Program-made: the position numbers and the translations under genes
Part shown: positions 24,473 to 28,731 of the stretch, piece after piece
How the letters are laid out: the number at the start of each line of letters is the position of its first letter
Numbering within the stretch: the stretch's first letter is position 1
Notes under the pieces: model-generated
Told to the model about the DNA's origin: nothing
Seen by the model: the letters and a program-made list of their open reading frames with translations, nothing else
Databases searched by the model: none
NCBI GenBank assembly: GCA_938008015.1
Contig: CALLMA010000115.1
Coordinates: 1-33,662 of the forward strand
Reading direction: 5' to 3'
Source: an uncultured Celeribacter sp.
GTDB taxonomy: Bacteria > Pseudomonadota > Alphaproteobacteria > Rhodobacterales > Rhodobacteraceae
DNA: 33,662 nt

Positions 24473-25429
24473 ATGACCATTTACAGAATGAAGTCGGTTG
24501 GCTTTATTACACTTCTTCCTATAATTCTAGCTGCATGCTCTGGCTCTTCTAGCGATGTTGAACAGTCTACAGCTGATGAGATGAATACTGCCGAAACTCA
24601 ACAGCCTGAATATGCGTCCCTAAATAGCCGTACTAACGATAGCAGCACTCTAGGCGGCGCTGGTTACAGTGGATATAAAAAAGACGGTGAATCATTTCAT
24701 GGCGCCGCACAAGTGTCAGGCACACTCAACCACGACACCAACGAAATTCAGATTACAGTAAATGATCTCAATATCATCGATGAAGATGGCTTTGATCAAA
24801 ATGGCAGGATTTCCAACAGTGAAATCACACTCATAAACCTAACAGAAGATAAGTTTGATAATCATTACGAATATGTGAATGTGTTTCAGCATAACAACAA
24901 TCCTTATTATATAGAAGGAAATGATTTATCCGGTCAGAAGACATCTGAAAAACATCATATTGTTGCTGGGATAATCACCAATGAAGTGGATGTGCCTCTT
25001 GATGGGATTGCAACTTACTCCGGCGAGGCCACAGGCCGCTATATCTCACTCCCTGCTGATAACCTTGATGAATCTGTGTTACATAACCTTAACAACGGCA
25101 CGAGCCTTGTTACCGTTGACTTTGGGCAAGGTGTGGTCACAGCAGAATTGAACAACTTTGATTCACACGCCGCAAATGGCGAAGATCTATTAATTGATGA
25201 AATCATTGTGAGAAATATGCAAATCACGGGCAACGGTTTCTCTGGTGGTGATTTAGAAATTTACAAAGATGGCGCAGAAATTGCGTTCATCGATAGCACA
25301 GGCGATATTCAATCTCATGGCGCATTATTTGGCTTCGATGAGACGCAAGCCATACCTGATGAGGTTGGCGGAGTGATACATGCACAAGATAATGAAAATA
25401 CACTCGAAGCTGTTTTCTTAGCCGACTAA
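24473..25429 (+). CDS. TbpB-like beta-barrel surface lipoprotein 1
   Basis: A 318-residue predicted lipoprotein. The signal peptide ends in a lipobox LAAC with the lipidated cysteine at 22, followed by a low-complexity acidic linker (to about residue 55). An unassigned N-terminal domain contains LGGAGYSGYKKDG and NDLNIIDEDGFD. The C-terminal half has the pattern of transferrin-binding-protein-type eight-strand barrels: ATYSGEATGRY, SLVTVDFGQGVVTAELNNFD, ITGNGFSGGD and the closing HGALFGFDETQAIPDEVGGV (282-301). Such proteins are often moved to the cell surface by Slam proteins; no Slam or TonB receptor gene is in the window. The ATG at 24473 has AGGGG five bases upstream. It is a paralogue of the next gene. 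The ligand is unknown. Confidence 0.8.
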   Translation: MTIYRMKSVGFITLLPIILAACSGSSSDVEQSTADEMNTAETQQPEYASLNSRTNDSSTLGGAGYSGYKKDGESFHGAAQVSGTLNHDTNEIQITVNDLNIIDEDGFDQNGRISNSEITLINLTEDKFDNHYEYVNVFQHNNNPYYIEGNDLSGQKTSEKHHIVAGIITNEVDVPLDGIATYSGEATGRYISLPADNLDESVLHNLNNGTSLVTVDFGQGVVTAELNNFDSHAANGEDLLIDEIIVRNMQITGNGFSGGDLEIYKDGAEIAFIDSTGDIQSHGALFGFDETQAIPDEVGGVIHAQDNENTLEAVFLAD

Positions 25430-25444
25430 CCAAACCGCTATTAA

Positions 25445-25539
25445 AAATCTCACTAGACGTTTTTCTCTATAAGAATGGGGGCTTCAAACCCCCACCTAAA
25501 AGAAAAATTATCCTTTCAATCTGAGCTCTAGTGAGATTT
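25445..25539. repeat. Nested inverted repeat between the two lipoprotein genes
   Basis: Three inverted-repeat pairs are nested: outer AAATCTCACTAGA / TCTAGTGAGATTT (13 bp, 25445-25457 and 25527-25539), middle TTTTTCT / AGAAAAA (25460-25466 and 25501-25507), inner TGGGGG / CCCCCA (25476-25481 and 25489-25494, 7-base loop). The 95 bases fill most of the gap between the genes. This could be a structured RNA element, a terminator for the first gene, or a small MITE-like insertion; I see no clear target duplication. Confidence 0.7.
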
Positions 25540-25570
25540 AATCACTGTAACAATAGTGGGTGGAGTGAAG

Positions 25571-26452
25571 ATGGCTTATAAAACATTCAAATCAGTTGCG
25601 TGCATAACGTCTGCGTCAATTCTTCTAACGGCTTGTTCGAGTGGGAGTGACGAACAATCACGATACGCCACGCTCACGAGCACAGAAGATCGGGTGAGTG
25701 AGTTAGGGGGCGCAGGTATCAATCGATACCAACGAGATGGCAAAGGATTTTATGGAAATGCGATAATCTCGGGACAAATCGACCATGGAAACAAAATAAT
25801 TGACATAACCTCAAATGATCTGACAATTATCGATGAGAACGGGTTTGATAGATATGGGAACATCTCTCACAACGGTATAACGCTGACAAACGAGACGCGC
25901 TCAACTTTTGATGCTCAATATGACTATGTCAATTATTACTATTATGAAAACCCAAGCGATCAAATATTCGACAGACATTTGATTACAGCTGGTATAATCA
26001 CACGTGAAGATGATGTTCCAACAGATGGGACTGCTGTTTATCATGGTGAAGCTGCTGCCATTTATCAGCACGATTCTTATGCAGACACTTTTCACTATCT
26101 GAATGAGGGAACAAGCACGGTAACTGCAAATTTTGGTTCAGGCCTTGTTACAGCAGAGCTATCGAATTTTGCCAGCGTCCAAGATTCGGATCGCAATGCT
26201 CTTTCTGATTCACTCATAGACAGCATTATTGTACGTGATATGGAAATTCGTGAAAATACTTTTTTTGGTAGGGATATAGAAATATACAAAGACGGCGTAG
26301 AGATTAATTTTATCGCGAGTTCAGGAAGTGGGCGCAGTCATGGTGCCTTCTTTGGATATGACGAAAATAACCAGATTCCTGACGAAGTTGGTGGCGTGAT
26401 CTACACGGCTGGTTCTGACTCTTACGTTGAAGCCGTATATCTCGCAGATTAA
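25571..26452 (+). CDS. TbpB-like beta-barrel surface lipoprotein 2
   Basis: A 293-residue paralogue of the preceding lipoprotein. The lipobox LTAC has its cysteine at 22, the same position as in lipoprotein 1, but the linker after it is shorter. Shared blocks include LGGAGINRYQRDG, NDLTIIDENGFDRYGNIS, HLITAGIITREDDVPTDG, FGSGLVTAELSNF, EIYKDGVEINFI and the C-terminal HGAFFGYDENNQIPDEVGG (257 onward) ending in EAVYLAD. The pattern fits a C-terminal barrel of the TbpB type. GGAG lies five bases before the ATG at 25571; an in-frame GTG at 25556 is less likely. The pair arose by tandem duplication and has since diverged. Probable outer membrane or surface location; ligand unknown. Confidence 0.8.
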   Translation: MAYKTFKSVACITSASILLTACSSGSDEQSRYATLTSTEDRVSELGGAGINRYQRDGKGFYGNAIISGQIDHGNKIIDITSNDLTIIDENGFDRYGNISHNGITLTNETRSTFDAQYDYVNYYYYENPSDQIFDRHLITAGIITREDDVPTDGTAVYHGEAAAIYQHDSYADTFHYLNEGTSTVTANFGSGLVTAELSNFASVQDSDRNALSDSLIDSIIVRDMEIRENTFFGRDIEIYKDGVEINFIASSGSGRSHGAFFGYDENNQIPDEVGGVIYTAGSDSYVEAVYLAD

Positions 26453-26459
26453 ATCAAAA

Positions 26460-26479
26460 TAGCCCCAGCTATGGGGCTA
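26460..26479. terminator. Hairpin between lipoprotein 2 and the DUF1223 gene
   Basis: TAGCCCC and GGGGCTA form a 7-bp stem with a 6-base loop. On the minus strand it is followed by ATTTTGATTT, so it best fits as the DUF1223 terminator. It also sits a few bases past the stop of lipoprotein 2 and may serve both convergent genes. Confidence 0.7.
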
Positions 26480-27515: not shown

Positions 27516-28076
27516 TTACTTTGTTACAATAACAGAACTCATCCGGTCAGGCTCGCCAATGACGGCACCATTGCGGCCGCCCCCTTTTTTAATGGCGTGA
27601 ACGATATCCATGCCTTCGCTCACTTTGCCAACAACAGTATATTGGCCATTCAAATGTGGAGCGGGAGCAAACATGATAAAAAACTGACTATTGGCAGAAT
27701 GTGGGCTGCGGCTACGCGCCATACCAACCACCCCCTCTTCAAAAGGAATATCGCTAAATTCAGATTGAAGATTGGAGCGATTAGATCCCCCCGTGCCAGC
27801 CAATCGAAGCGCATAATCCTTTGAAGAAGAATCGCCATGTTTCACATCACCTGTTTGCGCCATGAAACCATCAATGACACGGTGAAAGACAACGCCGTCA
27901 TACTGCCCTTCAGCAGCTAAAGCCGTAATTTGAGCAACGTGATTTGGGGCCTGATCCTCAAAAAGATCGATCACAATCTTTCCATTAGCTTCCCCTGCAA
28001 CGGTAATTTCAATTTCCGTTGCGAAGGCTGAGCTGGCAGCGAAGAGCCCGAAAGCGGTTGCAACAGCTTTAAGCAT
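27516..28076 (-). CDS. Exported cyclophilin-type peptidyl-prolyl isomerase
   Basis: A 186-residue cyclophilin with a signal peptide (LKAVATAFGLFAASSAFA), so it acts in the periplasm. The core has GVVFHRVIDGFMAQTGD, the catalytic arginine and phenylalanine of the FHRVI region, ARSRSPHSANSQFFIMF and LNGQYTVVGKV. It speeds cis-trans isomerisation at prolines in folding proteins. Its ATG lies inside the end of the preceding cytosolic cyclophilin gene, with an 8-base overlap, so its translation is likely coupled to that gene. Confidence 0.94.
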   Translation of the reverse strand: MLKAVATAFGLFAASSAFATEIEITVAGEANGKIVIDLFEDQAPNHVAQITALAAEGQYDGVVFHRVIDGFMAQTGDVKHGDSSSKDYALRLAGTGGSNRSNLQSEFSDIPFEEGVVGMARSRSPHSANSQFFIMFAPAPHLNGQYTVVGKVSEGMDIVHAIKKGGGRNGAVIGEPDRMSSVIVTK

Positions 28077-28575
28077 CTGCAGCCACTTTCACAGAGATCA
28101 TCATATCTGGTTCGCGAGGCGGTTCGCCGCGTGTGATTTTATCAACTGCATCCATGCCTTCAATCACTTGCCCGTAGACTGTGTACTGGCCATTAAGGAA
28201 GTTATTATCGTTAAAGTTGATAAAGAACTGGCTGTTTGCTGAATTCGGATTCTGGCTGCGCGCTGCGCCAAGAGATCCGCGTGCATGTGGAAGTTTCGAA
28301 AACTCTGCAGGCAGATCAGGAAGATCAGAACCACCTGTTCCAGCGCGGCGAATTTCAAAATCTTTATTTTTATTGCCATGCTGCACATCGCCTGTCTGCG
28401 CCATGAAGCCATCAATCACGCGGTGAAAGACAACGCCATCATAAGCGCCAGAACGTGCAAGTTCCTTCATACGCTCACAATGCTTCGGCGCTACATCTGA
28501 ATGAAGCTCAATAACAACATTGCCATCTTTTAGCTCGATGATGATTGTGTTCTCTGGATCTTTGATCTCAGCCAT
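28069..28575 (-). CDS. ppiB: Cytosolic cyclophilin-type peptidyl-prolyl isomerase
   Basis: A 168-residue cyclophilin without a signal peptide, therefore cytoplasmic. Core motifs are GVVFHRVIDGFMAQTGD, identical over this stretch to the exported paralogue, EFSKLPHARGSLGAARSQN, NSANSQFFINFND and LNGQYTVYGQV. The ATG at 28575 has GGAG six bases upstream and was preferred over in-frame starts at 28590 and 28605. It is divergent from pgk with about 156 bases between, and its end overlaps the start of the exported cyclophilin. Confidence 0.94.
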   Translation of the reverse strand: MAEIKDPENTIIIELKDGNVVIELHSDVAPKHCERMKELARSGAYDGVVFHRVIDGFMAQTGDVQHGNKNKDFEIRRAGTGGSDLPDLPAEFSKLPHARGSLGAARSQNPNSANSQFFINFNDNNFLNGQYTVYGQVIEGMDAVDKITRGEPPREPDMMISVKVAADA

Positions 28576-28731
28576 TTTTATCTCCGTCATATTATGTGCC
28601 TGCACTATAATGAGGCAAATTAAGATGTAAACTTATATCAGGCGATGACAAGATGTTGACGAAGAGACAAGAAGCACTCAGAAAGAAATAATAAGCAGTA
28701 TTGCACAGCACATTCTTTGAGAGGATAGCCC

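Follow-up and report, generated by a model that had tools for sequence, protein, structure and literature searches.

The window, the whole stretch of 33,662 nucleotides analysed here, is contig C115 in full and belongs to a genome of 2.01 Mb in 137 contigs that is 85.7% complete. Two lipoprotein genes, here called LP1 and LP2, lie in tandem on the forward strand, flanked by ssb on one side and a convergent DUF1223 gene on the other. LP1 (24473..25429, + strand) encodes 318 residues and LP2 (25571..26452, + strand) 293 residues, both from an ATG start and with the stop codon included in the coordinates. Each protein begins with a signal peptide and a lipobox, read directly from the sequence by pattern and by eye: LAAC in LP1 (24473..24538, + strand) and LTAC in LP2 (25571..25636, + strand), with the predicted lipidated cysteine at residue 22 in both (24536-24538 and 25634-25636, respectively). 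Signal peptide and lipobox were also found by pattern search in many homologues. BLASTP aligns LP1 and LP2 over their full length with 150 identities in 322 positions (47%) and an E-value of 2e-78, so the blocks common to both reflect homology and not chance. These data confirm the initial annotation, which had described tandem paralogous lipoproteins with Cys22 in both and blocks shared along the whole length; the terminal and N-terminal motifs it quoted are seen in both proteins in their alignment. The longest versions of the two open reading frames begin 15 bases upstream (24458, ATG, for LP1; 25556, GTG, for LP2) and would add five residues each, which would leave the reading unchanged.

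The intergenic region contains an inverted repeat (25445..25539, + strand) with perfect arms of 13 bp at 25445-25457 and 25527-25539 and an inner G+C hairpin. The RNA fold of positions 25430-25570 has a z-score of -4.76, and none of 200 shuffles was as good. A repeat spread over the genome was considered for this palindrome and rejected, as the genome contains it in full only once, besides a chance match of 16 bases; an Rfam scan of the window gave no match. Between LP2 and the DUF1223 gene lies a terminator-like hairpin with a T-run (26460..26479, - strand), a weak feature in that three such sites were found and 1.5 are expected by shuffling.

The 27 other open reading frames of the window that were scanned are all ordinary chromosomal genes, among them those for isocitrate dehydrogenase, glycyl- and tyrosyl-tRNA synthetases, a phosphate ABC transporter, ssb, two cyclophilins and phosphoglycerate kinase. 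The cyclophilin-type peptidyl-prolyl isomerase genes form a tandem pair of their own (27516-28605), and the start of one looks signal-peptide-like by eye. Within its genus the genome is a reduced one, because it is smaller (2.0 Mb, 86% complete, versus 3.1-5.0 Mb in 19 congeners) and lower in G+C (44-48% in the stretches read, versus 51-64% in 14-kb stretches of 12 congeners). With a genome so reduced, the free-living lifestyle that had been assumed is not established; as a side reading, the organism may be host-associated or streamlined. In 12 congeners, stretches of 14 kb around ssb contain no tyrS, DUF1223 or cyclophilin genes, and since the genes flanking LP1 and LP2 are absent there, no empty site is demonstrable in these congeners.

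Family and predicted fold

TbpB_B_D (PF01298) is the sole Pfam match of LP1 and LP2 at E-values up to 1. Scanned individually, LP1 scores 29.8 bits and LP2 26.0 bits, which barely passes the cut-off of 26; in the whole-genome search the scores are 31 and 28.3 bits. The NCBI model slam_lipo (NF041636) is matched at 25.5 and 25.7 bits, far under its curated cut-off of 80, and both proteins fall outside this equivalog. A family profile of 14 sequences, comprising LP1, LP2 and 12 relatives, was searched against the sequences of solved structures and found LbpB (7.4e-14, 4e-11 and 9.6e-8, the best being 7jrd) and the TbpB C-lobe 5kkx (1.6e-8), besides weak matches to fHbp (0.003-0.65) and GNA2132/NHBA (from 0.025). 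The assignment to the TbpB type in the initial annotation is thus borne out by the profile and by the Pfam cut-off that both proteins reach.

AlphaFold models were obtained with a mean pLDDT of 83.3 for LP1 and 84.5 for LP2. Predicted structures lacking an eight-strand barrel had been named as grounds for giving up the family call; instead, each model has about eight main strands from the Pfam start onward, by our own grouping of DSSP elements, and the modelled C-terminal domain is an eight-stranded beta-barrel. The comparison with TbpB, HpuA and fHbp folds that had been proposed was carried out with Foldseek against the PDB. For both models the top match is the TbpB C-lobe 5kkx (8.4e-9 for LP1, 2.1e-9 for LP2), and the 50 matches listed per model all belong to TbpB, LbpB, fHbp, NHBA or HpuA or, with LP2 as the query, also to HphA. 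TM-scores by query length among the matches listed are modest (0.31-0.48), and therefore the handle or its orientation appears to differ from that of TbpB. On the models, the fold class is firm and the N-terminal domain superposes only loosely.

The barrel, as delimited by PF01298, the models and Foldseek, is encoded at 24992..25423 in LP1 and 26015..26440 in LP2 (both + strand). A beta-rich domain precedes it in the models, at residues 57-141 of LP1 (24641..24895, + strand) and residues 42-128 of LP2 (25694..25954, + strand). This N-terminal domain, left unassigned in the initial annotation, would most simply be the handle or pedestal that precedes such barrels; the available text of PMC12282271 names the handle position with the terms 'pedestal' and 'effector'. 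Conservation is higher in the C-terminal half than in the N-terminal one in each of the eight comparisons made with LP1. The position of LP1 residue 87 (24731-24733), which lies in a turn of the N-terminal domain, is occupied by histidine in six and arginine in three of the nine rows of one family alignment, and by histidine in only six and arginine in three of 14 rows in a larger one.

The Slam gene and the distribution of the family

A search for Slam (DUF560), proposed together with the family call, found one SlipAM/DUF560 (PF04575) gene in the genome at E <= 1, located on contig C106 (74 bits with a cut-off of 22, E 9.8e-21) and carrying TPR repeats ahead of the SlipAM part. It starts 15 bp downstream of a third paralogue, a lipoprotein of 306 residues with the lipobox LAGC that shares 30% identity with both LP1 and LP2 along their length. 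A fourth paralogue (282 residues, lipobox LTAC) lies on contig C18; it was missed by the Pfam scan and found only with the profile of the genome's own family (E 3.7e-35). A Hint_2-domain protein is encoded near it on this contig (L013:2787-3695). Because the Slam gene is on C106, a contig other than that of LP1 and LP2, these two and the C18 paralogue are cargo candidates unlinked to Slam. In a poorly resolved tree of 17 lipoproteins, in which three of 14 inner branches are firm, LP1 and LP2 are joined firmly; the tree does not place the other paralogues of the genome.

A profile of three members gave a match at E <= 0.01 in two of 60 other genomes (a fragment in one, G025, and a weak match in the other, G033) and in none of the 19 congeners. 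A scan of genome contigs with three of the genome's own lipoproteins matched 108 stretches, none of them a relative.

At the level of whole genomes, PF01298 and Slam occur together more often than expected. The PF01298 and PF04575 searches of each survey were taken to cover the same genomes, as equal numbers and handles suggest. Of 289 alphaproteobacterial genomes, 16 have PF01298, 26 have PF04575 and 14 have both, where 1.4 are expected (Fisher 4.5e-15, shared ancestry not corrected for); leaving out the genome under study, 13 have both, of 15 and 25, respectively (Fisher 4.4e-14). The corresponding numbers for 248 genomes of the same family, each from a different genus, are 29, 56 and 18, with 6.5 expected (p 1e-6, again uncorrected for shared ancestry). 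None of 14 control genomes matched PF04575. PF01298 occurred without Slam at E <= 1e-5 in 2 of 16 genomes of the class survey and 11 of 29 of the family survey. A looser Slam search of these 13 raised four over the Pfam cut-off and gave matches only below it in three and none at E <= 5 in six; a recognisable Slam may thus be dispensable for some TbpB-type barrels, or a Slam was missed. One surveyed genome has four PF01298 matches in less than 5 kb (G352:C1:2219043-2223818), and tandem arrays of such genes are therefore not peculiar to the window. Another, G288, which is rated 100% complete, has ten PF01298 matches, yet only a weak Slam match (24.8 bits).

Proposed surface display and candidate ligands

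These results make it very probable that LP1 and LP2 are surface lipoproteins and cargo of the single Slam of their genome, encoded away from it. Each would comprise a signal with lipobox, followed by a short linker, the beta-rich handle or pedestal and the C-terminal barrel. Made as lipoproteins, they would be taken to the outer membrane via the Lol route and moved to its outer face by the Slam (T11SS) translocon, which would recognise the conserved barrel, and the more variable parts, the N-terminal half and the loops, would bind the ligand. Such a pathway is in line with the available parts of three reports: Slam1 translocates TbpB in a reconstituted assay (PMC9090332), the Neisseria cargo proteins TbpB and LbpB can be unlinked to Slam (PMC5449769), and Slam with barrel cargo is described in Rhodobacteraceae and Roseobacteraceae (PMC12282271). 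Several points weigh against this assignment, namely the slam_lipo matches far under the curated cut-off, the remoteness of the Slam gene, so that the proposed link is drawn from sequence, the PF01298 genomes without a Slam match (six with none at E <= 5), the modest TM-scores (0.31-0.48) and the absence of a three-member-profile match in 19 congeners.

Among the closest described counterparts are the predicted T11SS cargo lipoproteins of 282-375 residues from Rhodobacteraceae and Roseobacteraceae, which in the available text of PMC12282271 resemble LP1 and LP2 in size, lipoprotein signal and C-terminal barrel and come from related bacteria. Their loci hold the T11SS gene together with DUF1194, ThyX and glyoxalase genes (PMC12282271), whereas LP1 and LP2 lie away from Slam. 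Of the 145 cluster 3 T11SS genes in that paper, only eight have TbpBBD as a neighbour, and 102 have DUF1194. Membership of the genome's own Slam in this DUF1194-linked cluster 3 type was considered and rejected, as the genome has no match to DUF1194 (PF06707). A literature search for such proteins in Rhodobacteraceae or marine alphaproteobacteria yielded PMC12282271 as the only directly relevant paper, and no paper on LP1 or LP2 themselves was found. The two are well supported and ordinary in kind, the latter because that paper already describes comparable Slam loci from the same bacterial group.

Regarding the ligand, we would tentatively guess at a target borne by a partner cell or contained in the surrounding matrix and hence an adhesin-like role, and consider this more likely than an iron protein passed to a TonB receptor. 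Rather unlikely is a function in iron or haem acquisition like that of TbpB, HpuA or hemophilin, in which the metal source would be handed to a TonB-dependent receptor. It has in its favour the fold shared with TbpB, LbpB, HpuA and the hemophilin HphA, and iron uptake is common among the experimentally verified cargo, which comes entirely from an animal-associated T11SS cluster in the accessible text of PMC12282271. A PF00593 search of the genome at E <= 0.001 found a single TonB receptor; it is closest to BtuB (PDB E 6e-35) and reaches 255 bits with the NCBIfam model TonB-B12, under that model's cut-off of 600. The adjoining gene encodes a binding protein with weak similarity to BtuF and better matches to other ABC binding proteins. 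As the sole receptor found is BtuB-like, a TbpA/TbpB-type or haem co-receptor is disfavoured, in a genome that is 86% complete and from which a receptor could be missing. Furthermore, there is no TonB receptor among the 27 other open reading frames scanned in the window, and none of the histidines is invariant in the family alignments of 9 and 14 rows. The BtuB-like nature of the sole receptor found fits the earlier guess at a ligand other than a host iron protein.

The TbpB/LbpB C-lobe of Neisseria and Pasteurellaceae is alike in being lipidated, in combining a beta-rich domain with a barrel, in sequence homology and as the top fold match, and profile alignment reveals a common G-x-F-(F/Y)-G ... 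E-x-G-G stretch. TbpB and LbpB have two lobes, whereas LP1 and LP2 have one in the models, they come from a different bacterial class, and no receptor like their partners TbpA and LbpA was found in the genome. A TbpB transferrin receptor proper was therefore rejected, given the single lobe and the absence of a TbpA-like partner from what was found in the 86% complete genome. HpuA and the hemophilins (HphA) are alike as single handle-barrel units of similar size, with structural matches to the HpuA/hemophilin entries 5ee4 (both models) and 8gm3 (LP2), but differ in that the LP1/LP2 family alignments lack an invariant histidine. Hemophilin homologues in the available part of PMC12282271 are unlipidated, unlike the lipobox-bearing LP1 and LP2. 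With fHbp and NHBA the likeness consists of the fold and weak profile matches. The ligands of these two proteins are human complement factor H and heparin, and there is no reason to expect either for LP1 and LP2.

It is improbable that LP1 and LP2 are retained at the inner surface of the outer membrane, facing the periplasm. The unlinked Slam gene, and the fact that we infer their surface exposure, would allow it; against it stand the surface-exposed state of the nearest tested proteins, TbpB, LbpB, fHbp and HpuA (PMC5449769, in the part available), the genome-level co-occurrence with Slam and the Slam-adjacent paralogue in the same genome. Transport to the surface by a route other than Slam has even less to recommend it: six of the 13 PF01298 genomes mentioned above still have no Slam match at E <= 5, but the genome in question has a Slam beside a family member. 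The least probable idea is a surface capture of a corrinoid or corrinoid-bearing protein together with the BtuB-like receptor, as a B12 counterpart of TbpB-TbpA, in that the reduced genome retains four TbpB-type lipoproteins and Slam alongside this sole TonB receptor found and PMC12282271, in its available text, speculates that some T11SS serve cobalamin uptake, whereas no sequence or gene-neighbourhood link between lipoproteins and receptor was found.

Slam-dependent display of LP1 and LP2 would add a reduced alphaproteobacterial genome to the range of this system. One Slam, one adjacent and three unlinked cargo candidates and no iron-type TonB receptor found make it a clean setting in which to look for the ligands of these proteins and to ask if a single Slam handles several unlinked cargo proteins.

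Slam loci in named relatives

By scanning genome contigs with a nine-row Slam alignment, 23 named loci were found whose Slams are 22-43% identical to that of the genome under study. Their titles, which include Oceanicola, Actibacterium, Pelagimonas, Thalassobius, Palleronia and Poseidonocella, are presumably mostly Rhodobacterales. With the family profile, a related lipoprotein is detected close to Slam in 12 of the 23; those of L131, L133 and L139 themselves make up rows of the profile, and the match in L148 is short and weak (2.6e-4). A broader profile, which is not independent because some of its training sequences are these same proteins, matches at E < 1e-4 in 20 loci, several matches being weak or short; in two of the three loci without such a match (L138 and L142), the Slam reading frame starts within about 420 bases of the sequence end. 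The lipoprotein gene directly precedes or overlaps Slam on the same strand in nine of the 12 loci, with further such pairs in L137, L140 and L151, and three lipoprotein genes follow each other in L136. When 15 lipoproteins encoded beside or near Slam were scanned with Pfam TbpB_B_D, only five passed the cut-off, four stayed below it and six had no match at E <= 0.1, and surveys relying on this model will therefore undercount cargo in this bacterial group. DUF1194 is present somewhere in 15 of the 21 genomes searched (L138, L147 and L150 were left out).

Some of the lipoproteins beside or near Slam are short, with 201-220 residues. In three of them (L135:5246-5878, L137:5243-5905 and L140:5326-5961; 210-220 residues) the Pfam barrel match is below the cut-off or missing, and two (L130:2467-3111 and L132:2331-2936) match the broad profile only; these proteins are possibly barrel-only cargo devoid of a handle. 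The Slam reading frames L132:5341-7287 and L074:1498-3444 encode 648 residues, and that of L074 has about 220 residues ahead of the part aligned to the genome's own Slam, either an extension or a wrong start.
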